Below, in pieces: positions 1-58,913 of a stretch of DNA of 64,000 bases. How positions within the stretch are numbered: position 1 is the first letter of the stretch; the number at the start of each line of letters is the position of its first letter. A model generated the notes under the pieces. It saw only the letters and a list, made by a program, of their open reading frames with translations. It searched no databases and was not told where the DNA came from. The DNA comes from Volvox africanus (Eukaryota; Chlorophyta; Chlorophyceae; Chlamydomonadales; Volvocaceae): assembly GCA_030268105.1 (NCBI GenBank), contig BSDZ01000117.1, positions 248,001 to 312,000 on the forward strand. Reading direction: 5' to 3'. Position numbers and translations under genes: made by a program.

Positions 1-728
1 GCGAGCAAACAGAGACAGCGGAAGACTTCAAGACGAAGAGAGATATAACTTACAGTCTTACAGATCGAAGCGGTGCAATGGACGCAATCGCCGTCAGCGC
101 CGGAAGCAAGCAATCATCACGTGGCGGTGAATAGCGAAGTTTAGGCTTAGCTCGGGCTAAGTAGAATAGCGTATAGCAATAATAATGTAGAACACACGAG
201 TGTTCTCCGGTGTCGAATATCTTGTCTTGCTTAGCCGTCCTCGCATCTGTTATACTCGCAGTATCGCAATGCCGTGCGATTCACACTAGGAGGCCGATCC
301 TAGATGTGACAATCCTACCGCGTTTAGGCGATGTCCAAGTATAACAACGTATAAGCCTTTCCGGCATTCGCATGATGCAAGGGTCCGGATAACGATATCC
401 GGTTGCAGGGCATGTATCGCGACGAGTGCGGCGCTCTCAACGTGTGCTTTAATGAAGTAATATTATATCAGATAATATTACTTATCGTTTCGTAGCACGA
501 GCATAATGCGCACTTCAATGCTTCGGGCTTTCATGCATGCTAGGCGGATTTGCCATGATGCGATGTCGCGATGGATAATGACAACATGCCAAATGCATAT
601 ATAAATGTACACGAATACATTTATATCATGCAGATTCATTCATATGCAATGTGTTCATCACAATAGCACTTCGCCTTGTAGGATCACATCGACCTACGCA
701 TCGGCGGGAAACTAACCGTAGCACAACA

Positions 729-1139: not shown

Positions 1140-1206
1140 AGAAAGAACCTACTTCCGATTAGACAAAGAGAGACAGTTAGGCAACGAACCTGTCTCGATA
1201 CCAATT

Positions 1207-2030
1207 TGTTGTACCTCTCGTTCGCATTTGCTCATCAGTATCTGCACGTCTGAAGGCTTGCGACACCAATGTGCAAGCACTTGCAAGTACAGCAAGACAA
1301 GCGCGAGCAAACAGAGACAGCGGAAGACTTCAAGACGAAGAGAGATATAACTTACAGTCTTACAGATCGAAGCGGTGCAATGGACGCAATCGCCGTCAGC
1401 GCCGGAAGCAAGCAATCATCACGCGGCGGTGAATAGCGAAGTTTAGGCTTAGCTCGGGCTAAGTAGAATAGCGTATAGCAATAATAATGTAGAACACACG
1501 AGTGTTCTCCGGTGTCGAATATCTTGTCTTGCTTAGCCGTCCTCGCATCTGTTATACTCGCAGTATCGCAATGCCGTACGATTCACACTAGGAGGCCGAT
1601 CCTAGATGTGACAATCCTACCGCGTTTAGGCGATGTCCAAGTATAACAACGTATAAGCCTTTCCGGCATTCGCATGATGCAAGGGTCCGGATAACGATAT
1701 CCGGTTGCAGGGCATGTATCGCGACGAGTGCGGCGCTCTCGACGTGTGCTTTAATGAAGTAATATTATATCAGATAATATTACTTATCGTTTCGTAGCAC
1801 GAGCATAATGCGCACTTCAATGCTTCGGGCTTTCATGCATGCTAGGCGGATTTGCCATGATGCGATGTCGCGATGGATAATGACAACATGCCAAATGCAT
1901 ATATAAATGTACACGAATACATTTATATCATGCAGATTCATTCATATGCAATGTGTTCATCACAATAGCACTTCGCCTTGTAGGATCACATCGACCTACG
2001 CATCGGCGGGAAACTAACCGTAGCACAACA
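1207..2030 (-). repeat. Family-1 LTR, representative array copy
   Basis: The LTR is 824 bp and bounded by TGTTGT...ACAACA inverted termini. Equivalent full copies start at 2509, 3811, 5113, 6415, 7717, 9019 and 10321. It contains several hairpin-forming palindromes: a 10-bp stem at about 1759-1783, an 11-bp stem at about 1901-1928, and CCGGATA/TATCCGG at about 1687-1704. The 3' LTR of element A (18492-19323) is the same family. Confidence 0.9.
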
Positions 2031-8000: not shown

Positions 8001-11000
8001 AGAACACACGAGTGTTCTCCGGTGTCGAATATCTTGTCTTGCTTAGCCGTCCTCGCATCTGTTATACTCGCAGTATCGCAATGCCGTACGATTCACATTA
8101 GGAGGCCGATCCTAGATGTGACAATCCTACCGCGTTTAGGCGATGTCCAAGTATAACAACGTATAAGCCTTTCCGGCATTCGCATGATGCAAGGGTCCGG
8201 ATAACGATATCCGGTTGCAGGGCATGTATCGCGACGAGTGCGGCGCTCTCAACGTGTGCTTTAATGAAGTAATATTATATCAGATAATATTACTTATCGT
8301 TTCGTAGCACGAGCATAATGCGCACTTCAATGCTTCGGGCTTTCATGCATGCTAGGCGGATTTGCCATGATGCGATGTCGCGATGGATAATGACAACATG
8401 CCAAATGCATATATAAATGTACACGAATACATTTATATCATGCAGATTCATTCATATGCAATGTGTTCATCACAATAGCACTTCGCCTTGTAGGATCACA
8501 TCGACCTACGCATCGGCGGGAAACTAACCGTAGCACAACATTCCGCGGACATGGAGCACGAAGCGATACCCTAGGTTTGCGTAATAGAAGCCGACTTCTA
8601 TCGCAAAGACAAGAGTACAAAACGATTCGGTGAGCCTACTGACAGTACTCTTGAGAAGATTCAGTAAACTCAGCAAGTACTTGCCCAGCTGAGTCCTGAT
8701 CTCCGTAGTTTGGGCGATGAGGGTCGCCAACTGGTCCGGACGAAAGCCGGTCTCAGTCGCCGCGGCAAGCAATGCCGGTGCACTGAGATTACCTGCGACT
8801 CAGAGCGTACACTTACACAACAAGTGCAGCAATCTAAGCAAAAGCAATTAAACAATTACAAACCGGAAGCGGCGGCGTCCAAAACGGCGCGGCCTAGGTC
8901 TTCGGCAAAAGTATCTAGCGGTCCTCGTGGTTCGTCGCTGGAACTCGCCATAGAAAGAACCTACTTCCGATTAGACAAAGAGAGACAGTTAGGCAACGAA
9001 CCTGTCTCGATACCAATTTGTTGTACCTCTCGTTCGCATTTGCTCATCAGTATCTGCACGTCTGAAGGCTTGCGACACCAATGTGCAAGCACTTGCAAGT
9101 ACAGCAAGACAAGCGCGAGCAAACAGAGACAGCGGAAGACTTCAAGACGAAGAGAGATATAACTTACAGTCTTACAGATCGAAGCGGTGCAATGGACGCA
9201 ATCGCCGTCAGCGCCGGAAGCAAGCAATCATCACGTGGCGGTGAATAGCGAAGTTTAGGCTTAGCTCGGGCTAAGTAGAATAGCGTATAGCAATAATAAT
9301 GTAGAACACACGAGTGTTCTCCGGTGTCGAATATCTTGTCTTGCTTAGCCGTCCTCGCATCTGTTATACTCGCAGTATCGCAATGCCGTACGATTCACAC
9401 TAGGAGGCCGATCCTAGATGTGACAATCCTACCGCGTTTAGGCGATGTCCAAGTATAACAACGTATAAGCCTTTCCGGCATTCGCATGATGCAAGGGTCC
9501 GGATAACGATATCCGGTTGCAGGGCATGTATCGCGAAGAGTGCGGCGCTCTCAACGTGTGCTTTAATGAAGTAATATTATATCAGATAATATTACTTATC
9601 ATTTCGTAGCACGAGCATAATGCGCACTTCAATGCTTCGGGCTTTCATGCATGCTAGGCGGATTTGCCATGATGCGATGTCGCGATGGATAATGACAACA
9701 TGCCAAATGCATATATAAATGTACACGAATACATTTATATCATGCAGATTCATTCATATGCAATGTGTTCATCACAATAGCACTTCGCCTTGTAGGATCA
9801 CATCGACCTACGCATCGGCGGGAAACTAACCGTAGCACAACATTCCGCGGACATGGAGCACGAAGCGATACCCTAGGTTTGCGTAATAGAAGCCGACTTC
9901 TATCGCAAAGACAAGAGTACAAAACGATTCGGTGAGCCTACTGACAGTACTCTTGAGAAGATTCAGTAAACTCAGCAAGTACTTGCCCAGCTGAGTCCTG
10001 ATCTCCGTAGTTTGGGCGATGAGGGTCGCCAACTGGTCCGGACGAAAGCCGGTCTCAGTTGCCGCGGCAAGCAATGCCGGTGCACTGAGATTACCTGCGA
10101 CTCAGAGCGTACACTTACACAACAAGTGCAGCAATCTAAGCAAAAGCAATTAAACAATTACAAACCGGAAGCGGCGGCGTCCAAAACGGCGCGGCCTAGG
10201 TCTTCGGCAAAAGTATCTAGCGGTCCTCGTGGTTCGTCGCTGGAACTCGCCATAGAAAGAACCTACTTCCGATTAGACAAAGAGAGACAGTTAGGCAACG
10301 AACCTGTCTCGATACCAATTTGTTGTACCTCTCGTTCGCATTTGCTCATCAGTATCTGCACGTCTGAAGGCTTGCGACACCAATGTGCAAGCACTTGCAA
10401 GTACAGCAAGACAAGCGCGAGCAAACAGAGACAGCGGAAGACTTCAAGACGAAGAGAGATATAACTTACAGTCTTACAGATCGAAGCGGTGCAATGGACG
10501 CAATCGCCGTCAGCGCCGGAAGCAAGCAATCATCACGTGGCGGTGAATAGCGAAGTTTAGGCTTAGCTCGGGCTAAGTAGAATAGCGTATAGCAATAATA
10601 ATGTAGAACACACGAGTGTTCTCCGGTGTCGAATATCTTGTCTTGCTTAGCCGTCCTCGCATCTGTTATACTCGCAGTATCGCAATGCCGTACGATTCAC
10701 ACTAGGAGGCCGATCCTAGATGTGACAATCCTACCGCGTTTAGGCGATGTCCAAGTATAACAACGTATAAGCCTTTCCGGCATTCGCATGATGCAAGGGT
10801 CCGGATAACGATATCCGGTTGCAGGGCATGTATCGCGACGAGTGCGGCGCTCTCAACGTGTGCTTTAATGAAGTAATATTATATCAGATAATATTACTTA
10901 TCGTTTCGTAGCACGAGCATAATGCGCACTTCAATGCTTCGGGCTTTCATGCATGCTAGGCGGATTTGCCATGATGCGATGTCGCGATGGATAATGACAA

Positions 11001-12457
11001 CATGCCAAATGCATATATAAATGTACACGAATACATTTATATCATGCAGATTCATTCATATGCAATGTGTTCATCACAATAGCACTTCGCCTTGTAGGAT
11101 CACATCGACCTACGCATCGGCGGGAAACTAACCGTAGCACAACATTCCGCGGACATGGAGCACGAAGCGATACCCTAGGTTTGCGTAATAGAAGCCGACT
11201 TCTATCGCAAAGACAAGAGTACAAAACGATTCGGTGAGCCTACTGACAGTACTCTTGAGAAGATTCAGTAAACTCAGCAAGTACTTGCCCAGCTGAGTCC
11301 TGATCTCCGTAGTTTGGGCGATGAGGGTCGCCAACTGGTCCGGACGAAAGCCGGTCTCAGTCGCCGCGGCAAGCAATGCCGGTGCACTGAGATTACCTGC
11401 GACTCAGAGCGTACACTTACACAACAAGTGCAGCAATCTAAGCAAAAGCAATTAAACAATTACAAACCGGAAGCGGCGGCGTCCAAAATGGCGCGGCCTA
11501 GGTCTTCGGCAAAAGTATCTAGCGGTCCTCGTGGTTCGTCGCTGGAACTCGCCATAGAAAGAACCTACTTCCGATTAGACAAAGAGAGACAGTTAGGCAA
11601 CGAGCCTGTCTCGATACCAATTTGTTGTACCTCTCGTTCGCGTTTGCTCATCAGTATCTGCACGTCTGAAGGCTTGCGACACCAATGTGCAAGCACTTGC
11701 AAGTACAGCAAGACAAGCGCGAGCAAACAGAGACAGCGGAAGACTTCAAGACGAAGAGAGATATAACTTACAGTCTTACAGATCGAAGCGGTGCAATGGA
11801 CGCAATCGCCGTCAGCGCCGGAAGCAAGCAATCATCACGCGGCGGTGAATAGCGAAGTTTAGGCTTAGCTCGGGCTAAGTAGAATAGCGTATAGCAATAA
11901 TAATGTAGAACACACGAGTGTTCTCCGGTGTTGAATATCTTGTCTTGCTTAGCCGTCCTCGCATTTGTTATACTCGTAGCATCGCGATGCCGTACGATTC
12001 ACACTAGGAGGCCGATCCTAAGTGTGACAACCCTACTGCGTATAGGCGATGTCCAAGCATAACAACGTATAAGCCTTTCCGGCATTCGCATGATGCAAGG
12101 GTCCAAAAAACAATATTCGGTTGCAAGGCATGCATCGCGACGAGTGCGGCGCTCTCAACGTGTGCTTTAATGAAGTAATATTATATCAGATAATATTACT
12201 TATCGTTTCGTAGCACGAGCATAATGCGCATTTCAATGATTTGGGATTTCATGCATGCTAGGCGGATTTGCCATGATGCGATGTCGCGATGGATAATGGT
12301 GTCATGCCAAATGCATATATAAATATATACGAATACATTTATATCATGCAAGTTCATTCATATGCATTGATGGTTCATGCGTTCATCAAGATAGCACTTC
12401 GCCTCGTAGGGTCGCATCGACCTACGCATCGGCGGGAAACGAACCGTAGCACAACAT

Positions 12458-13176: not shown

Positions 13177-14377
13177 CTTAGCTAGCCAACCCGATTTTGT
13201 TGTGGCTGCTAGAGCTCCGGATAGAGGTCTTGAGACTGTTGGCACGCGAGCCACTCAAGAGCCCCTTGTCCTTCAGACCCCTGCTCACATAATTGTGCCG
13301 CATTCAGCAGTTAATACGAATATGGACAACACTGCTGGACCACGGGTTCTGCCGTTACCTCAAGCGCGAAGGCACGACGCCATCCCTGAGGTGATGAGAT
13401 TGTCAATTCCCGTTCCTAGGCTTAATATCTCACTGACTGAAAAGACACCAGGCCCTAGCATAGCCGATGCAACTCATGCGTACGTGCGTGACGCTAAAAA
13501 GTATCTCCAGGCTGTTCATGGTGGTGATAATGATGGTATCAGGTGTCTCTTCGTTGGTAACACCCTTGAGGGCTCAGCGAAGGACTGGTATCGCAAATGG
13601 ACCACCGCCCGGGATGAATATACTTTTGACGAGATGATCGCCGCTCTGCTGGCACGGTTCGCTACTGAGGTGCAAGCAGGTGATGTGGAGGCTCGTAAGG
13701 TTTTGGCAGCCGGTAGCTACCACATGCGTCGGGGTGAAAATGTACCTGCGTACCAGTCACGCTTCGAAGCACTTGTGACCCCCATTGCTGACCTCACCGA
13801 GACCGAGCGTGTCTTTTGGTTTAAGCGAGGCCTGACGAAACTTTTGGCTAAATGGTGCGCTACTGACTTGTCTGGGGTGCCGATCAAGTCGTATGATGCC
13901 TTGGTCACATTTGCTAAGGGTACGGAGATACGACTACTTGCCGGTGAAGAAGAAGCCAAGTCCGCCCCTCGTGCAAATGCCGTGCAAGTGCAGGATCCGC
14001 TTGGGGAAGCTGTAGCTCTAGACCAGGAACTTGGAGCGACCCACCCCTCACCTACTGCCGCGACGCGACGCAGCAACCGGCAACACAAGGCGCGCGGGGG
14101 CGCTAGCTTGGGTGTCCGTGGGTCAGGAGGAGCAGGTCCGAGCTCGGACCCAGCTAAGAGCAGGAAGCGTGGTGGTGCGCCGTCATCGGCAGCCGCACAG
14201 CGCTCTGACCCCAATGCGAAGCGGACTCGCACGGATGACTCGTTTATGCCAAAATGGAATTGCAATCGTTCCGAGTTCGAGCGTCGGAAAGTGGCCAATG
14301 TTTGTCTACAGTGCGCGGAGAGCCATCCTACGAAGGATTGCCCATTGCTGCCGCCGTTTGTACCTCAGCCGAAATAG
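13142..14377 (+). CDS. gag: Gag (element A)
   Basis: This 411-residue structural protein would form the virus-like particle and bind the element RNA. A retrotransposon Gag core lies at about residues 114-275, from YVRDAKKYLQ through the conserved W and F positions to the KGTEIR region. A basic, low-complexity linker follows, then a zinc knuckle at residues 388-400 (CLQCAESHPTKDC). The knuckle spacing is C-X2-C-X3-H-X4-C, one residue shorter than the usual retroviral C-X2-C-X4-H-X4-C. The frame ends in UAG at 14375, and the same frame stays open beyond it into Pol. The chosen ATG lies within the end of ORF0; conservation with element B begins at this methionine (MSxxxD). Confidence 0.9.
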   Translation: MSAEHDNTPHTSLASQPDFVVAARAPDRGLETVGTRATQEPLVLQTPAHIIVPHSAVNTNMDNTAGPRVLPLPQARRHDAIPEVMRLSIPVPRLNISLTEKTPGPSIADATHAYVRDAKKYLQAVHGGDNDGIRCLFVGNTLEGSAKDWYRKWTTARDEYTFDEMIAALLARFATEVQAGDVEARKVLAAGSYHMRRGENVPAYQSRFEALVTPIADLTETERVFWFKRGLTKLLAKWCATDLSGVPIKSYDALVTFAKGTEIRLLAGEEEAKSAPRANAVQVQDPLGEAVALDQELGATHPSPTAATRRSNRQHKARGGASLGVRGSGGAGPSSDPAKSRKRGGAPSSAAAQRSDPNAKRTRTDDSFMPKWNCNRSEFERRKVANVCLQCAESHPTKDCPLLPPFVPQPK

Positions 14378-14416
14378 GGGTTTGCCCGGGTTCCTGCGGA
14401 GGGGGCACCGCCCGGG
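14375..14416 (+). promoter_or_regulatory. Putative Gag-Pol UAG readthrough signal (element A)
   Basis: The UAG at 14375-14377 is followed by a 7-nt spacer, then CCCGGG (14385-14390), a 20-nt loop and CCCGGG (14411-14416), which can pair as a 6-bp stem. Gag and Pol are in the same frame. The spacer, stem position and loop length are identical in elements B, C, H, L and P, while paired bases covary. Readthrough itself is inferred. Confidence 0.75.
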
Positions 14417-15421
14417 ATTTCTGAACTAACACGTGGTCGGTGGTCATCCTTACGGCCAGCCATGAAGGCATTGTTGCCTTGCGTACTTGGACACATCGAG
14501 CGAGTCATTGCGCGACGTATCACGCTTGACGGACGTACGGGACTTCTCTGCTTCGACCCGTTGTGTAATTTGTTTACACCTCGCCGTCCCCTGTCGTCTA
14601 TCGATCTGTCTAACCACGTGGTTTTGTTCATCCCCTCATCTCTGCGTGAGATGTCGGAACAGTTGGCCATATACAGGAGGTGTAGGCGTCAATATCCAGG
14701 CACCGCCGCATGTGTTTTACTCCCCGCTTTCTGTCGGCGCAAGGCAGAGGCATCGTTAAGGGGTATGCGGCATGTCCACCGGTTCGAGCCGGGCACCGTT
14801 TTGTTTAATGGTGTGGATCGGGAGGGTACGCTGGCTCCGTGGCCAAGCACATCCTACTCGGTTGACGTTTGGTACGAAGCTCCTGACGGGGGTGCCGTAG
14901 GTCACGGACCCGCCCTAAGTGCACTGACGTTGTCTGCTGGGCAGTCGCTCGTAGATAACCGTGTCCCTGTGGTTCAGATCGGTTTGAATGGCCGTACTCT
15001 GAAGGCACTTGTTGACACCGGTGCCAGCGACGACTTCATCTCTGTCGCAGAGGTGAATGCGCTGGGGTTGTCCCCAGAGTCGTCTGATTGTCCACAGGTT
15101 ACCCTTGCTGACGGGGGTAAGCATCCCATCGTGGGCAGGATTACCCTTAGCCTATCGATAGGCCCTTTGCGTGTTGTGACCCGGCCGTACGTGCTGCAGG
15201 GCTTAGCAGAGACTGCACCGTACATAATGGGGTCGTCGACATTACGGCAGTACCGCGCGGGCATCGACATGGAGACCGCAACCCTGCATATGTGCAAGGG
15301 TACTCTGTCGATTAAGGTACCTTTCCTGTCGTTCAAACATGTCACACCAAAGGAGGGCGAAACTGAGGCGGTGCCTATGGTTAATTTCGCTGTGACCGCA
15401 ATGGCCGCGAACCAGAGCTAG
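14378..15421 (+). pseudogene. pol: Pol N-terminal part: pre-protease domain and aspartic protease (element A)
   Basis: The frame continues from Gag through the UAG. The first ATG (14462) opens a domain of about 120 residues present in every family here: LDGRTGL, FDPLCNLF, VVLFIPSS, AACVLLP, a GT-LFNGVD motif and YSVDVWYEAP. Its order of motifs recalls degenerate N6-adenine methyltransferase-like modules, but the catalytic N/D-PP-F/Y motif reads IPSS, so activity is unlikely. A retropepsin follows with LVDTGASDDFI (catalytic D-T-G) and a later flap-like region. A 7-bp deletion after 15409, relative to the copy at 59159, shifts the frame and causes the stop at 15419-15421. Confidence 0.8.
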
Positions 15422-17937
15422 TCGGGCGTAAGGAGGCCGTCCGTTTGTTACGGAAGGGTGCCCACGGACTGCTTTTAAGGCCGCGGGTGAGCTGTTGTGT
15501 CACCACTGCGCAGATTTCTGCGGATGCTGAGGTTGAGGCCCTACTGTCGCAGTATGAGGACGTCTTTAAAGATATCCCTGGCCTACCACCTATGCGTCCT
15601 GTTGATCACACAATCCCTCTCGTGCCTGGAGCGCAGCCTACGGCCCGGCCAATGTACAGGTTGAGTCCATTGGAGCTGGACGAGGTGAAGCGCCAGGTGA
15701 CGGATTAGCTTGCGAAGGGTATGATACGCCCCAGCACATCCCCGTATTCTGCACCGATTTTGTTTGTCGGTAAGAAGGATGGGACCTTGCGCATGTGCAT
15801 CGATTACCGGGGGTTAAATGCGAGTACGGTGAAAAATCGCTACCCTTTGCCACGCGTCGACGACCTGTTGGATAAGCTGAAGGGCTCGGCTTATTTTTCC
15901 TCAATTGACTTACAACAGGGCTACAATCAGATTCGCATCGCTGCCTCTGATATCCCAAAATCCGCTTTTCGGACGCCCTTCGGTCACTTTGAGTATACGG
16001 TCCTATCGTTTGGTTTGACTAATGCCCCTGCGACGTTTCAGGCGGTTATGGACCGAATGTTTAGGCCGTTTATCGACAGGTTCATTGTTTGCTACCTGGA
16101 TGACATCTTGGTATATTCTAAGACGCACGAGGAGCACTTGGAGCATCTTCGGCTCGTGCTCGACGTTATGAGGCGGGAGCAATTGTTTGCTAAACGCGCC
16201 AAATGCTTTTGGGCGCAGCCTCAGGTGGAATATTTGGGCCACATTGTGTCGGCCACTGGTGTGAAGATGGACCCACGGAAGGTCGCCGTGCTTCGTGATT
16301 GGTCCGCGCCTCGGAACCTCACGGAGCTGCGTAAGTTCCTTGGCTTGACCAATTATTTCCGAAAGTTCATTGAAAAATATTCCATCATTGCGGCCCCGCT
16401 TACTAACTTAACTCGCAAAGGCGTTTTCGTTTCGCTCGAGTCATGGACATCGCAATGCCAGCGGGCATTCGAAGAGCTCAAACGAATCGTTGCCGAAGAT
16501 GTCACCCTTGCATTCCCTGATTACTCGTTGCCATTTCGTGTTGAGGTAGTGTCTGATGCCTCAATACTTGGAAGCGGCGCTGTATTGTTACAGGAAGGGC
16601 GACCGATCGCCTTCACGAGTAAGAAGTTTTCTGGTGCGGAGATTCGCTACACCACCGGGGAACAGGAGCTTCTGGCCGTGCTGCATGCTTTAAAGGAATG
16701 GCACTGTTACCTCGAGGGACGCCCGTTTACTTTAAAGACTGACCATAAGCCCCTAACGTTTTTGCAAAGCGTTCCGACGTTGAACCGCCGTCAGGCTAGG
16801 TGGATGGAATACCTAGCTAGGTTCGACTGCACCTGGGAGTATATTTCTGGTAAATTGAATATTGCCGATGCTCTCAGTCGACATCCGTCGCTACACACTG
16901 CAATTTTGGCAGCGCCCGTCGTGCGGCCGCGTAGCGAGGAGGTACCGATCGCGACGGACCTCGCGGAGCGGTTGAAGGTTGCCTACAACGCAGACGCCTG
17001 GTTCGCGGACCCGGCTAATGTAGAAAACCTTCGCAAGCAGAATGGCCTTTGGCTACGGACGGAGGGTGCAGCTACGCAAATCGTCGTTCCGAACGACGAC
17101 GCGCTACGCTACGACATCCTTGCGCGGTTCCACGAGGACCCGTTAGCAGGACACCCTGGTAGCAAGCGATTGATCGATTTGGTGCAACGTTCCTTTTGGT
17201 GGCCTCGTTTGGCTAAGGATGCAGCGAACTTCGTCCAGACATGCAGTCTGTGCCAGCGCAATAAGGCTTTGTCCGGTAAGGGCCATGGGTTGTTGCAACC
17301 GTTGCCTGTCCCGGATGCGCCTTGGGAAAGTGTTTCCATGGACTTCGTAGTCGCGCTGCCCAAAACTGAGGGGGGATATGATGCGGTGTTCGTAATGGTC
17401 GATCGTCTGACTAAGATGGTTCACCTAGCACCATGCACATCATCCTGCACGGCTGAGCAAACCGCACGCTTGTTTTTCGACAATGTGGTTCGGTTGCACG
17501 GGGTTCCCAAAATCGTGATTTCGGACCGCGTTGGACAATTCACGTCTAAGTTTTGGGAAGCGCTCTGCAAGCTAGTTGGCATGCGTGTCAACCTGAGCAC
17601 GGCGTATCACCCGCAGACTGATGGTCAAACCGAACGCACAAACCGCACGTTGGGTGATATGTTGCGCAATTATGCTGGTCGCACACCACTTGTTTGGGAT
17701 ACATATTTGACTGCGGCAGAATTCGCGCTTAACAACACTGTTAACCGCTCTACAGGCAAAAGTCCGTTCTTTCTTAACTACGGGTTTCATCCCGCGCTAC
17801 CCGTGTGGCGTGAGTTGGAAGTGAACGTGCCTGCTGCTAAGATCTTTGCCAAGTCTTTTATGTCCCGTATCACAGACGCGAAGGCATGTTTGGACGCGGT
17901 GCAGCAACGAACGACGGAATACTACAACAAATCCTAG
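15422..17937 (+). pseudogene. pol: Pol: reverse transcriptase, RNase H and integrase (element A)
   Basis: After the frameshift the frame continues through the linker (MRPVDHTIPLVPGA) to an in-frame UAG at 15706, where homologues have Leu. The 738-residue frame from 15721 then runs to a UAG at 17935, where homologues have Lys. RT motifs: [10 protein letters not shown] with the first catalytic Asp at residue 63, [11 protein letters not shown], and YLDD at 125-128. RNase [41 protein letters not shown]. Integrase: zinc-binding H-H-C-C (GHPGSKR ... CSLCQ), catalytic SMDF, ISDR and the E of [10 protein letters not shown]. The ISDR motif is followed by V, whereas the duplicate copy has G. Lesions are few, so decay is recent. 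Confidence 0.9.
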
Positions 17938-18491: not shown

Positions 18492-19323
18492 TGTTGTGCT
18501 ACGGTTCGTTTTCCGCCGATGCGTAGGTCGATGCGACCCTACGAGGTGAAGTGCTATCTTGATGAACGCATGAACGATCAATGCATATGAACGAATCTGC
18601 ATGATATAAATGTATTCGTATATATTTATATATGCATTTGGCATGTCACCATTATCCATCGCGACATCGCATCATGGCAAATCCGCCTAGCATGCATGAA
18701 ATCCCAAATCATTGAAGTGCGCATTATGCTCGTGCTACGAAACGATGAGTAATATTATTTGATATAATATTACTTCATTACAGCACACGTTGAGAGCGCC
18801 GCACCCGTCGCGATACATGCCTTGCAACCGAATATCGTTATTCGGACCCTTGCATCATGCAAATGCCGGAAAGGCTTATACATTGTTATGCTTGGACATC
18901 GCCTATACGCAGTAGGGTTGTCACACTTAGGATCGGCCTCCTAGTGTGAACCGTACGACATCGTGATGCTGTGAGTATAACAGATGCGAGGACGGCTAAG
19001 CAAGATAAGACTTTTGATACCGGAGAACACTCGTGTGTTCTACACTATTATCACTATACGCTATTCTACTTAGCCCGAGCTAAGCCTAAACTTCGCTTAT
19101 CACCGCCGCGTGATGATTGCTTGCTTCCGGCGCTGACGGCGATTTCGTCCATTGTTGCTTCGATCTGTAAGACTGTAAGTTATATCTCTTCTTGTCTTAA
19201 AGTCTTCCGCTGTCTCTGTTTGCTCGCGCTTGCCTTGCTGTACTTGCAAGTGCTCGCGCATCGGTGTCGAAAGCCTTCAGACGCGCAGATACTTATGAGC
19301 AAACATGAAGGAGAGGTACAACA
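18492..19323 (+). repeat. Element A 3' LTR (family 1)
   Basis: The LTR is 832 bp, TGTTGTGCTACGG to TACAACA. It matches the array LTRs read on the opposite strand. AT-rich palindromes with TATATATTTATATATG at about 18620-18636 could include a promoter TATA element, which is unproven. It abuts the broken gag of element D at 19324. Confidence 0.9.
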
Positions 19324-20249
19324 TCCTCCGTGCGCATCCGCTTTGCACGGGGGTGGGAGTTTTGCACTGCAGCCGCCGACGGCGCACCTCCCCGCTTTTT
19401 GCTCTTGTCTGGACCAGAGCTTGGGCCTGCACCCGCTGATCCACGGGCCCCGGTGCCTGAACCACCATGAGCACCGCGGCGCCGCTCTGTGCGCATGACC
19501 GTCGCAGCCGACGTAGGGCGCGCAGCACCAAGGTCATGATCGTTGGTTACAACTTCATCAGTCGGATCCTGTGCTTGCACAGCATTTGCACGTGGGGTAG
19601 GTTTAGGATCATCCTGACCAGCGAGGAAACATACCTCAGTTCCCCGAGCGAATTTTACCAAGGCATCGTACGTCTGGAACGGTTCTCCAGATAAATCAGC
19701 AGCACACCATTTTGACAGAGTCTTCGTCAGGCCGTGATGAAACCAAAAGATGTGATCATCCTCGGAGAAGTTCGCAATGGGTGTCACTAGTGCTTCGAAG
19801 CGTGACTGGTACGCAGGTACATTTTCATGTGCACGCATGTAATATGTGCCTTGCGCCAATGCCTTACGGGCCTCAACATTACGTGCATGTACCTCCGTAG
19901 CAAATCGTGCAAGCAATGCAGCAATTCATCGAGCGTGAAGTCATTCCGTGCAGTGGTCCACTCGTCATACCAGTCTTTCGCCGCGCCCGAGAGGGTGTTG
20001 CCGACGAAGAGACATTTAATACCATCATTTCCACCACCATGGACCGCCTGCAGGTACTTGTTAGTATCGCGCACATATGCACGAGGTGCATCAGCAACAC
20101 TACGTCCGGGGGTCCTAGGCTTCTCATCATACGCAATATGAAGCACAGGGATCGTGAGTTTCATCACCTCAGGAATACTGGCGTGGTCCTGTATTTGAGG
20201 CGACAGCAGACCCCGTTGATCCACAGCTCCATCCATAGTCGTAGTGGTG
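19324..20249 (-). pseudogene. gag: Gag fragment of element D (family 2)
   Basis: The minus strand encodes a Gag core (YVRDTNKYLQAVHGGG, CLFVGNTLSGAAKDWYDEW, then MRAHENVPAYQSRFEALV, CAADLSGEPF) and the basic linker with SKKRGGAPSAAAVQN. A frameshift near 19905 splits the core. The frame is cut at 19324 by the LTR of element A, before the zinc knuckle, and the rest of D is not found. The N-terminus is shortened: ORF0 sequence runs nearly straight into the MDGAVDQRG segment. Confidence 0.85.
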
Positions 20250-20577
20250 ACAGTACTCTTCAGGATTGCGAGGAAGTATAGTGAATACGTGCTAAGCTGG
20301 TTCCAATCTTAGTAGTCCGTGCGATCAAAGTCTCCACTGGTCAGAATGTAACCAGTAACCAGAATGTAACAAGGTTATAACCAGGAAATATCGCAAGCAG
20401 TGCCGGACAGCTAAATTCACCTGCAACTCAGAGCACAAGCTCCCACAACAAATGCAGGCAACTAGAAAAGAACAGCAACAATCACAAACCAGAAGCAACG
20501 GTGTCCAAAATGGCACGTCCAAGTTCTTTGGCAAAGATGTCTAGAGGGCTACGTCGACCATCGTCGACATCCACCAA
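20250..20577 (-). pseudogene. ORF0 remnant of element D, with intron
   Basis: The minus strand matches ORF0 exon 1 (20577-20490, 88 nt, as in B and the array), intron 20489-20421 and part of exon 2. The codon at the position of the ATG reads TTG. The exon 2 segment is decayed. Confidence 0.6.
20421..20489 (-). other. Spliceosomal intron in ORF0 of element D
   Basis: A 69-nt segment begins GTTTGTGATTG and ends GAGTTGCAG on the minus strand, at the same place as in the array (71 nt) and element B (72 nt). Confidence 0.7.
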
Positions 20578-22713: not shown

Positions 22714-23083
22714 GGACGAGGACATGGCCTGCGACGACCCTGACGAGGAGACCCCGGCGCCCCCGACCAAAAAACCGCGGGCTGCATCCGTTCGTCCAGG
22801 CATCACCGGGCACGAGGATCAGCCGCGGCAGGTTAAGGGCGCCGGTAAGTCTAAGAGGGGCGGCGGACAGCAGGGGAGGCACTTGGCCCCAAAAGGGGGC
22901 CACGTGCAGAAGAAGGGGCCTAAGCAGAACCTGGCGGAGTATCTAACCACATTCAAATGTACTAGACGGGAGTTCCATTTTCGTAAACAACATGGAATGT
23001 GCCTCCGTTGCGGTTCCGACCAACATAGGGTCAGCTCCTGCCCAATGCTGGGGGCGGAGAAAAATAAGGGTAAGGACCACTAG
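22628..23083 (+). pseudogene. gag: Gag C-terminal part, core deleted (element C)
   Basis: The frame encodes only the acidic/basic linker (HEDEDMACDDPDEE; SKRGGGQQG) and a zinc knuckle CLRCGSDQHRVSSC, spaced C-X2-C-X4-H-X4-C as in most retroelements and unlike family 1 and 2. The Gag core seen in A, B and M (YVRD ... PAYQSRFEAL) is absent, so several hundred bases were probably lost between ORF0 and here. Without the core the element could not make its own particle. The frame ends in UAG at 23081 and is in frame with what follows. Confidence 0.75.
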
Positions 23084-23122
23084 GAACTTGCCCAGGCTGG
23101 TATAGAGGGATCACCACCTGGG
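23081..23122 (+). promoter_or_regulatory. Putative Gag-Pol UAG readthrough signal (element C)
   Basis: UAG, a 7-nt spacer, CCCAGG (23091-23096), a 20-nt loop and CCTGGG (23117-23122). Relative to CCCGGG/CCCGGG in element A, the fourth pair has changed from G-C to A-U on both sides, which keeps the stem. Confidence 0.75.
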
Positions 23123-25760: not shown

Positions 25761-27140
25761 TCGGAAGGATCCCACCGTCAGATTGTCGTACCTAACGACG
25801 ATTCATTACGTCGTGAACTTCTCTCACGTTTTCATGACGGCCCTCTTGCTGGGCATCCTGGCTGCACGCGGTTACTGGAGCTTTTGCGGCGTCAATTCTG
25901 GTGGCCCCGCATGGCTAAGGATACCGAAAATTATGTCCTATGTTGTGACCTGTGCCAGCGCAATAAGGCCCAGTCTGGTAAATCACATGGGCATCTCCAA
26001 CCTCTTCCTATTCCTGACGCTCCGTGGGAAAGCGTTTCTATGGACTTTATTGTTGCGCTGCCCAAAACTGAGGGAGGATACGACGCCATGCTGGTCCTGG
26101 TCGACCGTTTCACTAAGATGGTCCACCTGGCCCCCACGACATCATCCTGCACAGCTGAGCAAACGGCCCGTCTATTCTTTGACAATGTGGTACGTTTGCA
26201 TGGGGTCCCCAAGTCCATGGTATCTGACCGCGGCACTCAATTTGCAAGTAAGTTTTGGCGCGCCCTGGGGACTCTGGTAGGAATGCGGGTGAACCTGTCC
26301 ACCGCCTACCACCCCCAATCTGATGGGCAAACAGAGCGTGTTAACCATGTCCTGGGTGATATGCTCCGTTACTTTGCAGGACGCACCCCTACTGCATGGG
26401 ATACCTACCTAACCGCTGCTGAGTTTGCCATTAATAATGCTACTAACCGGTCCGTTGGTAATAGTCCGTTTTTCCTGAATTACGGTTTTAACCCTGCTTT
26501 GCCTGTTTGGCGGGAAATGGACGTAAATGTCCCAGCTGCAAAAACGTTTGCTAAGTCTTTCGTGTCCCGTCTAACTGACGCTAAAGCTTGCCTGGAAGCT
26601 GCACAGCAACGGGCTATGGACTATTATAACAAGTCCAAAAAGGACGTCACGTTCACTAAGGGCCAGCTGGTTATGTTGAGCACAAAAAACCTTCGTTCCC
26701 TGGCTAATGGGTCTCGCAAGTTATTACCGTGCTTTGTGGGGCCTTATCCTGTCGTATGCATGGTAGGGTCGGTGGCTGTAGAGTTACAACTCCCATCTGA
26801 CCTACGCATTCATCCCACATTTCATGTATCTCTCGTACGTCCATATCGGGGTACTCTGCCTGAGGCTAACGATAGCATCCCTCCTGTTACGGAAGCTAAT
26901 CCCTCTACCTGGTTATCGGGTAAGCAGACCCTGTATGCTGTCGAACGTATCTTGGATTACCGTGCACGACGTGTTGGCAAGGGCAGGCATAAGCGTAACG
27001 TACATGAGTACCTGGTTAAGTGGTCTGGGTATTCGTCTGAGCACAATAGCTGGGAACCGGCACGTAACTTCACCCCTGACATGAAACCCCTGCTTGATGA
27101 AGCTAGGCTGCGGGCACAGTCTAAGGACGGACCTCTCTGA
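25761..27140 (+). CDS. pol: Pol: integrase and chromodomain, downstream of one stop (element C)
   Basis: The frame continues directly after the UGA. It has the zinc-binding H-H-C-C (GHPGCTR ... CDLCQRNKA), catalytic SMDF, VSDR and the E in SDGQTERVNH, then GPYPVV, HPTFHVSLVRPYRG, and a chromodomain (YAVERILDY ... YLVKWSGY ... HNSWEPARNF). The aromatic cage residues are present. It ends in UGA 69 bases before the 3' LTR. First internal ATG at 25884. Only the UGA at 25758 separates it from RT. Confidence 0.9.
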   Translation, partial: SEGSHRQIVVPNDDSLRRELLSRFHDGPLAGHPGCTRLLELLRRQFWWPRMAKDTENYVLCCDLCQRNKAQSGKSHGHLQPLPIPDAPWESVSMDFIVALPKTEGGYDAMLVLVDRFTKMVHLAPTTSSCTAEQTARLFFDNVVRLHGVPKSMVSDRGTQFASKFWRALGTLVGMRVNLSTAYHPQSDGQTERVNHVLGDMLRYFAGRTPTAWDTYLTAAEFAINNATNRSVGNSPFFLNYGFNPALPVWREMDVNVPAAKTFAKSFVSRLTDAKACLEAAQQRAMDYYNKSKKDVTFTKGQLVMLSTKNLRSLANGSRKLLPCFVGPYPVVCMVGSVAVELQLPSDLRIHPTFHVSLVRPYRGTLPEANDSIPPVTEANPSTWLSGKQTLYAVERILDYRARRVGKGRHKRNVHEYLVKWSGYSSEHNSWEPARNFTPDMKPLLDEARLRAQSKDGPL

Positions 27141-27626: not shown

Positions 27627-28720
27627 CCAGGATGACAAATGCATCGGTATAATTTTGGCAATAGGGGGCTGCGACCTCAGAACCTTTCACAAGAGACTGC
27701 ACGGTGGTAGCAATCGATTGCACCCAAGGCCTCACAAGCAATTCATGGGCGTCTCCCATATCATTTGATAGGCTTCTTTCACACCCTTCAAGCTTGGGTT
27801 CTTGATTTCGGCGGACGAACGCCGCTCAAGCGAAATCAACCTTAGGCTCCGCAACAGTTCCGCCCTCCTCTGGTGTGACATCTTGGTACGACAGACAAGG
27901 TACCTTAGGCGATAGGTTCCCTTTTGCACAATGGCCAATTGTGCTGGACTCCATATCGATGCGCACGCGGTACTGTCGTTATGTCACGGCACCCAATGTC
28001 CATGTAGTGCTGTCTCCAAGAGACCTTGTTGCACTCATTGGGCCCTAACACACAGAGGGTCCTTCGTCGACTAAGGGTGATCCTGCCCACGATGGGATGC
28101 TTACCCTCATCAACGAGGGTAACCTGTCACAATCAGACGACTGTGGGGTCGACCCCAACACATTCACCTCCTTTGCTGAGATGAAGTCGTCACTGGCACT
28201 AGTATCCTCAAGTGCCTTCATCATTCGACCAGCGAGGCCGACTTCAATAACGGAAACACAATAACCTGTCAGAGTCGACTCCACAGATAACAAAAGTGAT
28301 TCCAGGGCGGGCTCAAAATTAACAAAACCCGCTACAGGAGCTTCATACCAGACATCAAAGGCATAGGACAACTCCGGCAACAGAACTGCGGATCCCGCCA
28401 CGTTCACATCATCAATCAATACAGTGCCTGACTTGAATCAGCGGACACGTTGCATACTGTTTAACAAAGCGGTAGCCCTACGCTGGCTGTGAAATGGTAG
28501 CAACAAACATGCGGGAGTGTCTGGACATTGATGTCTACATCTCCTGTACCTGACCAACTGTTCAAACGGCTCACTTTGAGATGAGGGGATGAATAAAACG
28601 ACATGTTCTCAAGAACTAAAAGCAACGATGCTTCACAGTTGGACGTACGAATGACCACCGACCATGCATTTGTTCAGCTGTCCCGGATGGAGTCAACTCC
28701 GCATCAATCCAGGCATCCCC
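27627..28720 (-). pseudogene. pol: Element H: linker, protease and pre-protease remnants
   Basis: The minus strand carries the RT-protease linker (27627-28044), a decayed protease (ALEDTSASDDFISAKEVN, with catalytic D-T-G changed to D-T-S) and the YAFDVWYEAP end of the pre-protease domain (28045-28419). Shortened pieces of the rest follow. Frames are broken in several places. The copy in element P (48484-49577) shares most of these lesions. Confidence 0.75.
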
Positions 28721-28723
28721 CTA
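28682..28723 (-). promoter_or_regulatory. Putative UAG readthrough signal (element H)
   Basis: On the minus strand: UAG (28723-28721), a 7-nt spacer, CCTGGA (28713-28708), a 20-nt loop, TCCGGG (28687-28682). The stem pairs with one G-U. Two pairs differ from element A yet remain paired. Confidence 0.6.
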
Positions 28724-36846: not shown

Positions 36847-38150
36847 CCGCTCAACTTTGGCAGCTTAACCTGTACATAGGTTGTGAAACGGGTTGTGCTC
36901 GAGCACACAAGGGATCGTATAGTCAGCAGGTTGCATAGGTGGGAGCCCTGGGATGTCGCCAAAGACATCAGCATATTTATGCAGGAGGGCTTCGACCTCA
37001 AGATCCTTCACGGTGGACTGCGCGGTGGTAGCATTCGATTGCACCCGTGGCCTCACAAGCAACACATGGGCGCCTTTCCGTATCATCCAATCGGTTTCTT
37101 TGCGCCCAATTAGCTTGGGTTCTTCATTTCGGCGGACTAACGCCGCTAGAGCAAAATTAACCTCAGGCTCCGCAACAGTTCCGCCCTCCTCTGGTGTGAC
37201 ATCTTGGTACGACAGGAAAGGTTAGGCGATAGGTTCCCTTTGCAAAAACTAAGTGTGGTGGACGCCATATGGATGCGCGCGCGGTACTGCCGTAATGTCA
37301 CGGCACCCAGAATGTACTGTGCCGTCTCCGAGAGACCTTGTAGCACATACGGTTGGGCCCTAACACACAGAGGGCCTATCGATAGGCTCATGGTGATCCT
37401 GCCCACGATGGGATGCTTACCTCCATCAGCGAGGGTAACCTGTGCACAATCAGACGACTGAGGGGTCAGCCCCAATGCGTTCACCTCCTTTGCCGAGATG
37501 AAGTCGTCGCTGGCGCCGGTATCCACGAGCGCCTTCATCAGTCGGCCACCGAGGCTGATTTCGATAATAGGGACACGATTTCCTGTTAGAGTCGACTCCG
37601 TGGAAAGTAGAAGTGATCCTAGAGCAGGCTCGAACCTGGTAGAATCCAATAGGGGGGCCTCAAACCAAACTTCAGCAGCATAAGATAATTTGGGCAGTTC
37701 TGTCGGTTTCCCTGTCACATCCACACCGTTGAACAGAACAGTATCCGACTCGAATCGGAGAACACATTGCATACCTTCCAGCAGCGCCGCAGCTTTGTGC
37801 TGACTGTAAGAGGGAATTAGTATGCAAGCTGCAGTGTCCGGATTTTGACGACGATACCTTTTATACCTGGTGAGCTGTTCGCACAACTCACGAAAAGACG
37901 AAGGGATAAACAAAGTAACGTGGCCGGACAAATTGAGGGACGAAAGCGGTGCGAACAAGTTACAAAGCGAGTCAAAATGTGTCAGTCCCGTGCGACCATC
38001 AAGCAAAAAGCGTTGCTTGATAGCGCGCTCAATTTGTTCGAAAATAGAGGGTAAAAGAGCCTTCATTGCCGGTCATAACAATAGCCAGCGGCCACGTACA
38101 AGTCCTTCAGTCCCGGGAGGAGTCCCTTTCTCCGTAACCCGGGCAATTTC
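36847..38150 (-). pseudogene. pol: Element L: linker, protease and pre-protease domain
   Basis: Minus-strand frame 38066-37146 holds the pre-protease domain (LLDGRTGL, FDSLCNLFAP, HVTLFIPSS, AACILIPSYS, DTVLFNGVD) and a protease with intact LVDTGASDDFI. The linker region 37086-36865 is frameshifted. A UGA just upstream of 38066 interrupts the path from Gag. This is one of the best preserved copies of the pre-protease domain. Confidence 0.8.
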
Positions 38151-38153
38151 CTA
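38112..38153 (-). promoter_or_regulatory. Putative UAG readthrough signal (element L)
   Basis: On the minus strand: UAG (38153-38151), a 7-nt spacer, CCCGGG (38143-38138), a 20-nt loop, CCCGGG (38117-38112). Layout is identical to elements A, B and C. Confidence 0.7.
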
Positions 38154-48381: not shown

Positions 48382-49577
48382 CTGCTCAACCTTGGCAGCT
48401 TAACCTGTACATAGGTTGTGAAACGGGTTGTGCTCGAGCACACAAGGGATCGTATAGTCAGCAGGTTGCATAGGTGGGAGCCCTGGGATGTCGCCAAAGA
48501 CATCAGCATATTTATGCAGGAGGGCTTCGACCTCAAGATCCTTCACGGTGGACTGCGCGGTGGTAGCATTCGATTGCACCCAAGGCCTCACAAGCAACAC
48601 ATGGGCGCCTTTCCGTATCATCAAATCGGTTTCTTTGTGCCCAATTAGCTTGGGTTCTTGATTTCCGCTGACGATCGCCGCCAAAGCGAAATTAACCTTA
48701 GGCTCCGCAACAGTTCCGCCCTCCTCTGGTGTGACATCTTGGTACGACAGACAAGGTACCTTAGGCGATAGGTTCCCTTTTGCACAACGGCCAATTGTGC
48801 TGGACTCCATATCGATGCGCACGCGGTACTGTCGTTATGTCGCGGCACCCAATGTCCATGTAGTGCTGTCTCCAAGAGACCTTGTTGCACTCATTGGGCC
48901 CTAACACACAGAGGGTCCTTCGACGACTAAGGGTGATCCTGCCCACGATGGGATGCTTACCTCCATCAACGAGGGTAACCTGTCACAATCAGACGACTGT
49001 GGGGTCGACCCCAACACATTCACCTCCTTTGCTGAGATGAAGTCGTCACTGGCATTAGTATCCTCAAGTGCCTTCATCATTCGACCAGCGAGGCCGACTT
49101 CAATAACGGAAACACAATAACCTGTCAGAGTCGACTCCACAGATAATAAAAATGATACCAGGGTGGGCTCAAAATTAACAAAACCCGCTACAGGAGCTTC
49201 ATACCAGACATCAAAGGCATAGGACAACTCCGGCAACAGAACTGCGGATCCCGCCACGTTCACATCATCAATCAATACAATGCCTGACTTGAATCAGCGG
49301 ACACGTTGCATACTGTTTAACAAAGCGGTAGCCCTACGCTGGCTGTGAAATGGTAGCAACAAACATGCAGGAGTGTCCGGACATTGTGTCCGGACATCTC
49401 ATGTACCTGACCAACTGTTCGAACGACTCACTTTGAGATGAGGGGATGAACAAAACGACATGTTCTCAAGAACTAAAAGCAACGATGCTTCACAGTTGGA
49501 CATACGAATGACCACTGACCATGCATTTGTTCAGCTGTCCTGGATGGAGTCAACTCCGCATCAATACAGGCATCCCC
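48382..49577 (-). pseudogene. pol: Element P: linker, protease and pre-protease remnants
   Basis: Very similar to element H. Protease reads ALEDTNASDDFI, so catalytic D-T-G has become D-T-N. The YAFDVWYEAP motif is retained, and the pre-protease domain is shortened and broken. The linker (48822-48400) ends in NPFHNLCTG before a stop, also found in element L. Confidence 0.75.
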
Positions 49578-49580
49578 CTA
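49539..49580 (-). promoter_or_regulatory. Putative UAG readthrough signal (element P)
   Basis: On the minus strand: UAG (49580-49578), a 7-nt spacer, CCTGTA (49570-49565), a 20-nt loop, TCCAGG (49544-49539). Five of six pairs form. The H copy reads CCTGGA/TCCGGG, so CCTGGA/TCCAGG may be ancestral. Confidence 0.55.
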
Positions 49581-53603: not shown

Positions 53604-54847
53604 ATGTCGGGACGCGAAGATAGTTCCTATCTGGGCACCGCTAGCCAACCCGATAGCGGCCTTGCCGCTAGACCTGTTTTTGCCGATCCCGATACTGTCG
53701 GGACTCGTATCATGTCTGACCCCATTGTTCTTCAGACCCCTTCACATTTAATTGCACCCCTTCACATTTAGCAGCGGCTACAACAAGTGAAGGAGTTGGA
53801 GCACAATGGGCTCCGGTAATACCCGCGGTTCAAGAACCCGTCGGAATACCGGAGGTAATGAAGTTGACCATCCCCGTGCCCAAGCTCAATATTTCCGCTG
53901 ACGAAAAGGCAAAGAATTCAGGGCATAGCGTCGCGGATAGGACCAGGGCTTATGTTCGTGATGCTAGGCAATATCTGCAAGCGGTGCACGGCGGGGGATG
54001 CGACTCCATTAAATGCCTGTTTGTGGGAAATACCCTCGAGGGTGCCGCAAAGGATTGGTATGACGAATGGACCACTGCTAGAGGCAAGTACACGTTTGAT
54101 AACCTGATTGATGCTCTCCTCGTCCGCTTTGCTACGGAAGTTCGCTCGCGTAGCAACGAGGCTTGTAAGACGCTGGCACAAGGCACGTACCATATGCGTC
54201 CACACGAGACCGTCCCTGCTTATCAGTCCCGTTTTGAGGCCCTGATAACCCCTATTGTTAACTTTCCTGAGGAGGATCGTATCTTCTGGTTTCATCAAGG
54301 TCTCACGGAATCCCTTGCGCAGTGGTGTGCCACTGATCTCAGTGGAATTCCATTCTCATCTTATGATGCTTTAGTAACTTTTGCTAGAGGTGCAGAAGTT
54401 CGAAATTTGGCTGGAAAAGACGCTAAGCAAATCAATCCTCGTATTCACGCGATGCGAGCGCAGGAACCACCTTCGGAGTCGACACCGAAGGACCAGGGTT
54501 CCGATCGTCAATGCTCCGCGGCGGCCGCGCATACCGTTCGAAAGGAAAGACGGTATGATAATCGCGGACGCCAAAGCCCAAGTAATCGTGGGTCTGCGGG
54601 AGCTGGGCCGAGTTCCGGCCATGTGAAAGGAAAGCGAAGAGAGAGCGCACCGTCTGTAGCTGCAATGCAGAACGCGGCTCCTAGTGTTAAGAAGCCCCGG
54701 ACAGACGATCCTTATATGCAAAAGTGGGAGTGCCGACGTTCGGAGTTTGACCGTCGGAAGTTCGCTAATCTTTGCTTGAGGTGTGCGGGAGAGCACCCTA
54801 CTCGTGAATGCCCTCTTTTACTACCTTTCGTACCCAAGACGACTTAG
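53604..54847 (+). pseudogene. gag: Gag of element B, one frameshift
   Basis: The frame opens at 53604 (MSGRED, compare MSAEHD in A). It is shifted by a 20-bp local duplication around 53730-53770 (CCCCTTCACATTTA repeated) and is then open from 53858. The Gag core (YVRDARQYLQAVHGGG, CLFVGNTLEGAAKDWYDEW, PAYQSRFEALI) and the knuckle CLRCAGEHPTREC, with C-X2-C-X3-H-X4-C spacing, are intact. It ends in UAG at 54845, in frame with Pol. Confidence 0.88.
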
Positions 54848-54886
54848 GAAGTTGCCCGGGATGTGGAGGAAGGGACTTCTCCTGGG
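54845..54886 (+). promoter_or_regulatory. Putative Gag-Pol UAG readthrough signal (element B)
   Basis: UAG, a 7-nt spacer, CCCGGGA (54855-54861), TCCTGGG (54880-54886). Seven pairs form with one G-U, and the Pol frame continues open. Confidence 0.75.
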
Positions 54887-57632: not shown

Positions 57633-58913
57633 CATCCTGGAAGTACACAATTGGCAGAGCTAGTATGACGCTCGTTCTGGTGGCCGTGCATGGTGAAGGA
57701 TGTGGAAAGCTTCGTGCAAAGGTGCAGTTTATGTCAGCGCAATAAAGCATTATCCGGTAAGGGCCAGGGTTTATTACAACCTTTACCTATACCAGATGCC
57801 CCTTGGGAAAGTGTTTCAATGGACTTTGTAGTCGCGCTGCCTAAAACTGAGGGGGGATACGACTTGGTGTTCGTTATGGTCGATCGGTTGACCAAGATGG
57901 TTCACTTAGCCCCCTGCACCTCGTCTTGCACCGCTGAGCAAACAGCACGATTATTTTTCAATAACGTAGTCCGATTGCATGGGATTCCTAAAAATGTGAT
58001 ATCTGATCGCGGCAGTCAATTCACGTCTAAGTTTTGGGAAGCGCTATGTCAACTCGTCGGTATGCATGTTCATTTGAGCACAGCATATCATCCACAATCC
58101 GATGGGCAAACCGAACGCACAAATCGCACACTGGGCGACATGTTGAGGAATTTCGCGGGGTGCACACCCTCTGTTTCGGATACATTTCTGACTTCGGCAG
58201 AATTTGCGCTTAACAACGCTGTTAATCGCTCTACAGGTCAAAGCCCTTTCTTTCTGAATTATGGATTCCATCCTGCGCTACCCGTGTGGCAAGAGTTGGA
58301 GACAAATATCCCAGCGGCTAAAACCTTTGCCAAGTCGTTCCTATCCCGCATGACAGACGATGAGGCATGCTTGGACGTGGCACAACAACGGACGACGGAC
58401 TATTATAATAAATCCAAACGAGACATAACATTTTCGGTGGGACAAATGGTATCATTGAGCACTAAGAACTTGCGTTCGCTCGCCGATGGTTCCCATAAAT
58501 TGTTACCTCGCTGGATTGGTCCATATCCCGTTGTTCGTATGGTAGGAAACGTAGCTGTGGAGCTATCCCTACCTTCTGACATGAATATCCACCCCACGTT
58601 TCATATTTCACTCGTTCGTCCTTATCGTGGCACGGAGCCCGTTATGAACAACACCGATGCCCCTGCAGTAATGGACCCCGGTCCCGAGACCTGGATCGCA
58701 GGCAAGCAAAAAGTGTATGATGTGGAGCGAATATTGGATTATTGGGTTCATCGTATAGGTCGACAACGACGAAAGCGTAAGGTGCACGAATATCTGGTCA
58801 AGTGGACTGGCTATTCCAGCGAGCATAATTCGTGGGAGCCGATGCGTAACTTCTCGCCGGAAATGAAGCCCCTATTTGAGGAAGCTCGCCTACGTGCCAC
58901 GCAGACCCAATGA
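57633..58913 (+). pseudogene. pol: Element B: integrase and chromodomain
   Basis: Same frame as RT, with a second UGA at 57666 (an Arg codon in homologues), then open for 407 residues from 57690. Zinc-binding CSLCQ, catalytic SMDF, ISDRGSQF and the E of [30 protein letters not shown], and a chromodomain (YDVERILDYW ... YLVKWTGY ... HNSWEPMRNF). Ends in UGA. Confidence 0.9.

Follow-up and report, generated by a model that had tools for sequence, protein, structure and literature searches.

How an LTR retrotransposon would make Pol when its Gag frame closes with a stop codon, and Pol carries on in the same frame directly behind it, is the question raised by element A of Volvox africanus. The element lies in a window of 64,000 nucleotides (contig BSDZ01000117.1, positions 248,001 to 312,000, forward strand), in which further elements have the same arrangement. 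The initial annotation proposed that the UAG between Gag and Pol is read through with the help of a hairpin 7 nt downstream. We followed this proposal through the window, through copies of the junction in the rest of the genome and through the evolution of the hairpin arms.

Elements and junctions in the window

Elements A, B and C encode Ty3/gypsy proteins: a capsid-like Gag, protease, reverse transcriptase, RNase H and integrase. In A, Gag has a capsid-like domain and its translation shows a CX2CX4HX4C knuckle near the end. The chromovirus order of protease, reverse transcriptase, RNase H, integrase and chromodomain is found by Pfam in C. In B the same order is recovered by Pfam in separate pieces, with the protease not scored there; in A, Pfam covers protease to integrase, and the integrase end and chromodomain are recognised by tblastn similarity to B and C.

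Six junctions in the window (A, B, C, H, L and P) had been described as TAG, 7 nt, a 6-nt arm, 20 nt and a second 6-nt arm, and this description held at every site, in strand and in bases (Table 1). The window sequence gives arms of CCCGGG/CCCGGG in A and L, CCCAGG/CCTGGG in C, CCTGGA/TCCGGG in H and CCTGTA/TCCAGG, with one U-C mismatch, in P. The window copy of B has CCCGGG/CCTGGG, of which CCTGGG is a minority form, most B copies having CCCGGG/CCCGGG. All six sites are real, but they represent about four families (A; B with L; C; H with P) and not six independent cases. Most rows of A, B and H have a seventh pair at columns 17-36, which shortens the loop to 18 nt. The first arm covers codons for Ala and Arg/Gln/Trp, the latter being Arg in A, and the first base of the next codon, and the second arm covers Pro-Gly. 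A single Gag-UAG-Pol frame was confirmed for A and B, in which Pol is open from the codon after UAG, but the window copy of C (L039) is damaged: its Pol frame closes 132 codons past UAG and its Gag frame 160 codons before UAG. Other C copies are open.

Table 1. Coordinates of the junctions and neighbouring coding features within the window.
Feature	Position	Strand	Basis or remark
Element A Gag frame, stop to stop, 417 codons	13124..14374	+	Pfam Ty3_capsid E 3.5e-05, under curated cut-off
Element A UAG, Gag and Pol in the same frame	14375..14377	+	sequence
Element A 7-nt spacer, first base G	14378..14384	+	sequence
Element A hairpin arm 1	14385..14390	+	sequence, resampling
Element A 20-nt loop	14391..14410	+	outermost bases are the seventh pair in the majority of A, B and H rows; inner stem differs between families
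Element A hairpin arm 2	14411..14416	+	sequence, resampling
Element A Pol start, open from the codon after UAG	14378..15421	+	~190 residues without Pfam family, then aspartic protease ~14972-15250
Element A reverse transcriptase, RNase H, integrase	15709..17937	+	Pfam
Element B Gag frame	53720..54844	+	Pfam Retrotrans_gag E 1.7e-06
Element B UAG	54845..54847	+	sequence
Element B arm 1	54855..54860	+	sequence
Element B arm 2	54881..54886	+	sequence
Element B integrase end with chromodomain	57669..58913	+	Pfam Chromo E 4.2e-11
Element C UAG, copy damaged on both sides	23081..23083	+	sequence
Element C arm 1 (CCCAGG)	23091..23096	+	sequence
Element C arm 2 (CCTGGG)	23117..23122	+	sequence
Element C integrase with chromodomain	25761..27140	+	Pfam Chromo E 4.3e-13
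Element H UAG	28721..28723	-	sequence
Element H arm 1 (CCTGGA)	28708..28713	-	sequence
Element H arm 2 (TCCGGG)	28682..28687	-	sequence
Element L (B relative) UAG	38151..38153	-	sequence
Element L arm 1	38138..38143	-	sequence
Element L arm 2	38112..38117	-	sequence
Element P (H relative) UAG	49578..49580	-	sequence
Element P arm 1, one mismatch	49565..49570	-	sequence
Element P arm 2	49539..49544	-	sequence

The first ~190 residues of Pol (14378-14971 of the window, and homologues), which ribosomes would reach only by readthrough, have no counterpart in Pfam even at E 10. Their structural model is weak, with a mean pLDDT of 55 and values of ~70-86 over residues 81-140. Its best Foldseek matches are mostly adenine-N6 methyltransferases (RlmJ, PCIF1, M1.HpyAVI, CcrM, MTA1), the best at E 0.011 and none at or below 0.001. 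The sequence IPSS/TPSS stands roughly at what we take to be the expected position of an NPPY-type motif, and the domain may be an inactive methyltransferase-like domain.

The window contains other element-related sequence. Positions 1-11718 hold nine tandem, near-identical units of 1302 bp that are at least 99.6% alike. The array looks like an LTR-derived satellite, since the unit matches 18492-19227 (-) at 90% over its bases 1-728 and its remaining parts resemble sequence that adjoins other copies of the elements. Two Gag-like stretches, 18492-20266 (-) and 62244-63994 (-), have 63.7% identity to A Gag over 201 residues; they end before the junction, continue into sequence shared with the 1302-bp unit and are possibly Gag-only, non-autonomous elements. 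Elsewhere in the genome, matches recur at equal spacing on contig C113 (166743, 170730 and 174717, 3987 bases apart) and on contig C25 (1202270, 1213082, 1223894 and 1234706, 10812 bases apart), which suggests tandem arrays of whole retrotransposon pieces. An Rfam search of the window gave no match.

Junction copies across the genome

Copies were collected from the same genome (141 Mb, 126 contigs) with DNA queries, namely the A, B, C and H junctions and two diverged copies, and with a protease family search. The resulting rows are ranked best matches (40 DNA matches per query; the best 150 of 1762 protease candidates) and not a random sample. A homologous junction was present in 203 of the 208 stretches fetched and absent from five (L089, L125, L130, L167 and L168). 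By coordinates L036 and L122 are one copy, which leaves 202 distinct copies, 199 of them with UAG.

The identity of the stop is not random. Among these 203 best-match junctions UAG stands in 200, UUG in two and AAG in one, and UAA and UGA in none. The base that follows, +4, is G in all 203, and positions +4 to +6 read GAA in 118 and GGG in 85; the 7-nt spacer as a whole is not purine-only, having xUU or GAU in its middle. The second codon after UAG, which lies outside the helix, varies, though its third base is T in 203/203; a requirement of the spacer is the only explanation we can offer. The helix has all six pairs in 184 junctions, five in 16 and four in three. At the arms the Ala codon is GCC in 197/203 and the Gly codon GGG in 193/203, although in the flanking frames of the families GCC accounts for 16-27% of Ala codons and GGG for 16-30% of Gly codons. 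Within the first 13 Pol codons, residues A3, E8, G9, P12 and G13 are invariant, so that conservation begins three codons after the stop. Elsewhere the families have diverged strongly at synonymous sites (dS over codons 33-90 of 1.36 for A-B, 2.2 for A-C and 3.45 for B-C).

Open frames were checked in 68 copies with long flanks (30 C, 30 B and 8 A). No in-frame stop besides UAG was present in ten of the 30 C copies over 496 codons upstream and in one of the 30 B copies over 437 codons, in each case with ~541 codons downstream, to the end of the fetched stretch; none of the eight A copies among these loci was fully open. Of the best 150 of 1762 protease matches, 33 lie in an open frame of exactly 1353 amino acids and four in one of 1356, and open A copies appear among those with the 1353-residue frame. 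The junction was read in 14 of the 33, and each of these has UAG preceded by 101 open codons. The expectation that intact copies always keep UAG is thus borne out by copies open on both sides but fails for L137, in which UUG stands within an open frame of 1793 amino acids.

Both UUG copies belong to B and have intact arms. They lie on contig C20, L137 near 448.7 kb and L096, with a 1217-residue frame around the protease, near 2078 kb. In a gapped comparison they are 99.0% alike and no UAG copy is more than 98.0% alike to either; being closest relatives of each other, they did not arise independently, as an ungapped comparison had indicated. Because the two are closely related and the L137 frame extends over 1793 amino acids, a form without the stop has arisen and may since have been copied a single time, by moving or by duplication. 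Its existence argues against UAG being absolutely required in cis.

Pairing, protein coding and folding

Since the arms lie in coding sequence, any pairing has to be judged against the protein. Synonymous resampling of A, B, C and H, with protein and family codon usage fixed, was applied to the first 78 nt. The reported helix is the sole 6-bp helix common to the four families in this stretch and, with its sub-helices, the sole one of 4 or 5 bp; no second shared helix of at least 4 bp is present there. A shared helix of 5 or 6 bp arose in 0/3000 resamplings and one of 4 bp in 11/3000. The exact 6-bp helix is expected by chance in 0.7% (A), 1.1% (B), 6.1% (C) and 4.3% (H) of cases, and all four families carry it. 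Pairs of families shared a 6-bp helix anywhere in the 78 nt by chance in 29 to 185 of 2000 resamplings, and the triplets B-C-H and A-C-H in 0/2000. This null treats families as independent, so the odds are somewhat too small, notably for A with B (codons shared at conserved residues downstream: A-B 24/57, A-C 11/40). A control on real sequence keeps relatedness: a codon alignment of open A, B and C copies (2178 columns, 340 codons downstream and 370 upstream) contains three other shared 6-bp helices with a span of up to 60, none of them less than 566 nt from the stop. Judged by these comparisons of sequence, the pairing is in excess of what the protein requires.

On a tree of 157 distinct rows, the arms took 7 changes on internal and 27 on terminal branches, against 67 and 69 changes for loop and flank together (Fisher p 0.003; arms against loop alone, p 0.012). 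Because changes are fewer on internal branches and not on terminal ones, the arms were constrained while the elements replicated and are free to decay once inserted. Part of this constraint comes from the protein encoded by the arm codons. Pairing was kept in 5/7 internal and 11/27 terminal arm changes, a difference that is not significant (p 0.21).

The initial annotation called the hairpin covarying. At the level of families the changes are consistent, in pairs 4, 6 and 7: at columns 14-39, A and B have G-C where C has A-U; at 16-37, A, B and C have G-C where H has A-U; and at 17-36 most rows of A and H have U-A and most of B have A-U. Column shuffles, a control that ignores relatedness, reached the observed covariation score in 0/500. 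In a tree-aware test with our own null, modelled on R-scape, no helix pair was significant, the best of them standing at rank 22 of 1275 with E ~19; the leading pair among all 54 columns lies outside the helix and has E 4.5. With arms that hardly change and no pair anywhere below E 4.5, the power of the test was low. The consistent family-level changes therefore stand, but statistical covariation under a tree-aware null does not. The annotation had itself named a lack of significant covariation in a large alignment as grounds for its refutation, and such covariation was not obtained in this low-power test.

Minimum free energy z-scores of the 60-nt stretch range from -1.6 to +1.6 in 13 representatives, energies no different from shuffles. 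Folding predicts the helix with high probability for B, H, A3 and most L-type representatives and less surely for three of the 13 (A2, C1 and C2), in which some pairs have a probability near or below 0.58 (~0.5 in A2 and C1). The folds include a family-specific inner stem, GGAG with CUCC or CUUC, and UGGU with ACCA in C. A pseudoknot partner 3' of the hairpin, which had been suggested as worth seeking, did not emerge: loop-to-3' duplex energies in the 13 representatives fall within the shuffled range (best rank 21 of 200). A partner confined to single families or lying farther away may exist. The likeness drawn to gammaretroviruses therefore extends to UAG and a downstream structure at similar distance, and not to a demonstrated pseudoknot.

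Proposed readthrough, its alternatives and related systems

Programmed readthrough is the best-supported reading of the junction, given the in-frame layout, the retention of UAG and the +4 G, pairing beyond the needs of the protein and the lack of a shared AUG for Pol. We propose that the UAG is very probably a programmed leaky Gag terminator, with a hairpin-containing 3' signal, in chromodomain Ty3/gypsy LTR retrotransposons. Most ribosomes would stop at UAG and release Gag; a minority would insert an amino acid there via a near-cognate tRNA and continue in the same frame into Pol, yielding a little Gag-Pol. The leak would be set by the 3' signal, that is the G after the stop, the conserved 7-nt spacer and a compact stem-loop, which would be positioned at the mRNA entrance of the ribosome when UAG is in the A site. 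We infer readthrough itself, its stimulation by the hairpin and the decoding tRNA from sequence. Unexceptional folding energies, covariation short of significance, the two UUG copies and the case of the similarly arranged Tca2 of Candida, described below, count against the proposal.

Some of the evidence would also fit other explanations. The arms might be kept only through the conserved Ala-Arg/Gln/Trp and Pro-Gly residues, leaving the hairpin incidental; the first 13 Pol codons do hold conserved A, E-G and P-x-G, and the arms coincide with some of these residues, but this explanation is improbable when the exact helix has a chance of 0.7-6.1% per family and yet occurs in all four, and when triplets gave 0/2000. 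That UAG is no stop in this host, and Gag-Pol one ordinary frame, is scarcely credible. A search of the genome for eRF1 gave partial, exon-like pieces, among them a fragment with TASNIKS and YLCDNKF. These motifs are typical of standard-code eRF1; they, together with the lack of a second UAG in roughly a thousand codons of eleven long open copies, disfavour reassignment. Production of Pol by re-initiation, from an internal start or from a separate transcript has a precedent of sorts in Tca2, a similar layout for which reporter tests showed translation starting from an AUG within the loop (PMC2194720). We regard it as very improbable here, because conserved Pol residues start three codons after the stop and no AUG is common across families: the earliest in-frame AUG of most A rows is codon 29 or 92, that of C is codon 20 and that of most B rows is codon 130 or not seen, and the hairpins of the listed family representatives contain none.

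A further explanation accepts readthrough and gives the inverted repeat another role, in RNA packaging or dimerisation or as a DNA-binding site, with the +4 G and spacer alone making the stop leaky. The ordinary folding energy and non-significant covariation speak for it, as do spacer bases that are likewise strongly kept (+4 G and T at position 3 of codon +2, 203/203) and the report that the local structure of Tca2 gave no readthrough in S. cerevisiae (PMC2194720). Against it, the helix begins 7 nt past a recoded stop, near the 8-nt spacer described for murine leukaemia virus (PMC4178896), and is the only 6-bp helix common to the four families in the first 78 nt. We consider a separate role for the repeat unlikely.

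Readthrough at this junction would have relatives among viruses and retrotransposons. Type III viral readthrough is described as UAG with a 3' G or purine-rich octanucleotide and a 3' RNA structure, in gammaretroviruses, epsilonretroviruses and Tombusviridae (PMC3542737). The Volvox elements share the UAG and adjoining G, and a 3' RNA structure on comparative evidence only; their Gag-Pol layout is as in gammaretroviruses. UAG-GGG in A and H resembles the UAG-GGR given for Tombusviridae, whereas B and C have UAG-GAA. The signal of murine leukaemia virus is described as a pseudoknot behind an 8-nt spacer (PMC4178896); here the spacer is 7 nt and no pseudoknot was found within 78 nt. The carriers also differ, being viruses in the one case and LTR retrotransposons without evidence of an envelope in the other.

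Among retrotransposons, Tj1, Tosmo1-3 and Tcry1 of fission yeasts are described as Tf1/sushi-type Ty3/gypsy elements with an in-frame UGA between Gag and Pol; in Tj1, Pol has no AUG, the stop is needed for transposition and an 8-base context, GAA TGA CT, is conserved (PMC4600332, PMC10085805). Both groups belong to the Ty3/gypsy chromovirus branch and have an in-frame Gag-Pol stop. That context is absent from the Volvox elements, which have UAG then G in all families, and, unlike for Volvox, the accessible parts of these reports mention no downstream hairpin (PMC4600332, PMC10085805). Tca2 of Candida albicans is given as a Ty1/copia element with an in-frame UGA, an 8-nt purine-rich spacer and a predicted pseudoknot downstream; in S. 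cerevisiae its local sequence failed to bring about readthrough (PMC2194720). It is like the Volvox elements in its in-frame stop, short spacer and predicted structure and unlike them in UGA, pseudoknot and copia class. Tca2 serves as a warning, being a similar layout without locally directed readthrough in S. cerevisiae. In related chromodomain retrotransposons, frameshifts, single frames or UGA stops are reported (PMC10085805). In titles and the opening parts of abstracts, outside subscription journals and the survey of Gao and others (2003), we found no UAG-plus-hairpin signal in chromodomain elements. Stop-separated gag-pol being already known there with UGA, the version with UAG and a hairpin is best read as a new example of a known device, for which we do not claim priority.

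A narrower proposal is that Gag-Pol output in several chromovirus families of this one genome is set by a compact stem-loop of 6-7 bp that has no pseudoknot and stands at a fixed distance of 7 nt behind UAG-G. From the sequences at hand we judge this evenly balanced. If it is true, the full viral type III arrangement exists in LTR retrotransposons, and the UUG copies are a natural stop-less control. If readthrough is right, a retrovirus-like UAG readthrough signal with a defined structure would be placed in chromodomain retrotransposons, and their hundreds of natural copies, including UUG and broken-arm forms, would be ready variants for asking what a minimal readthrough stimulator needs.
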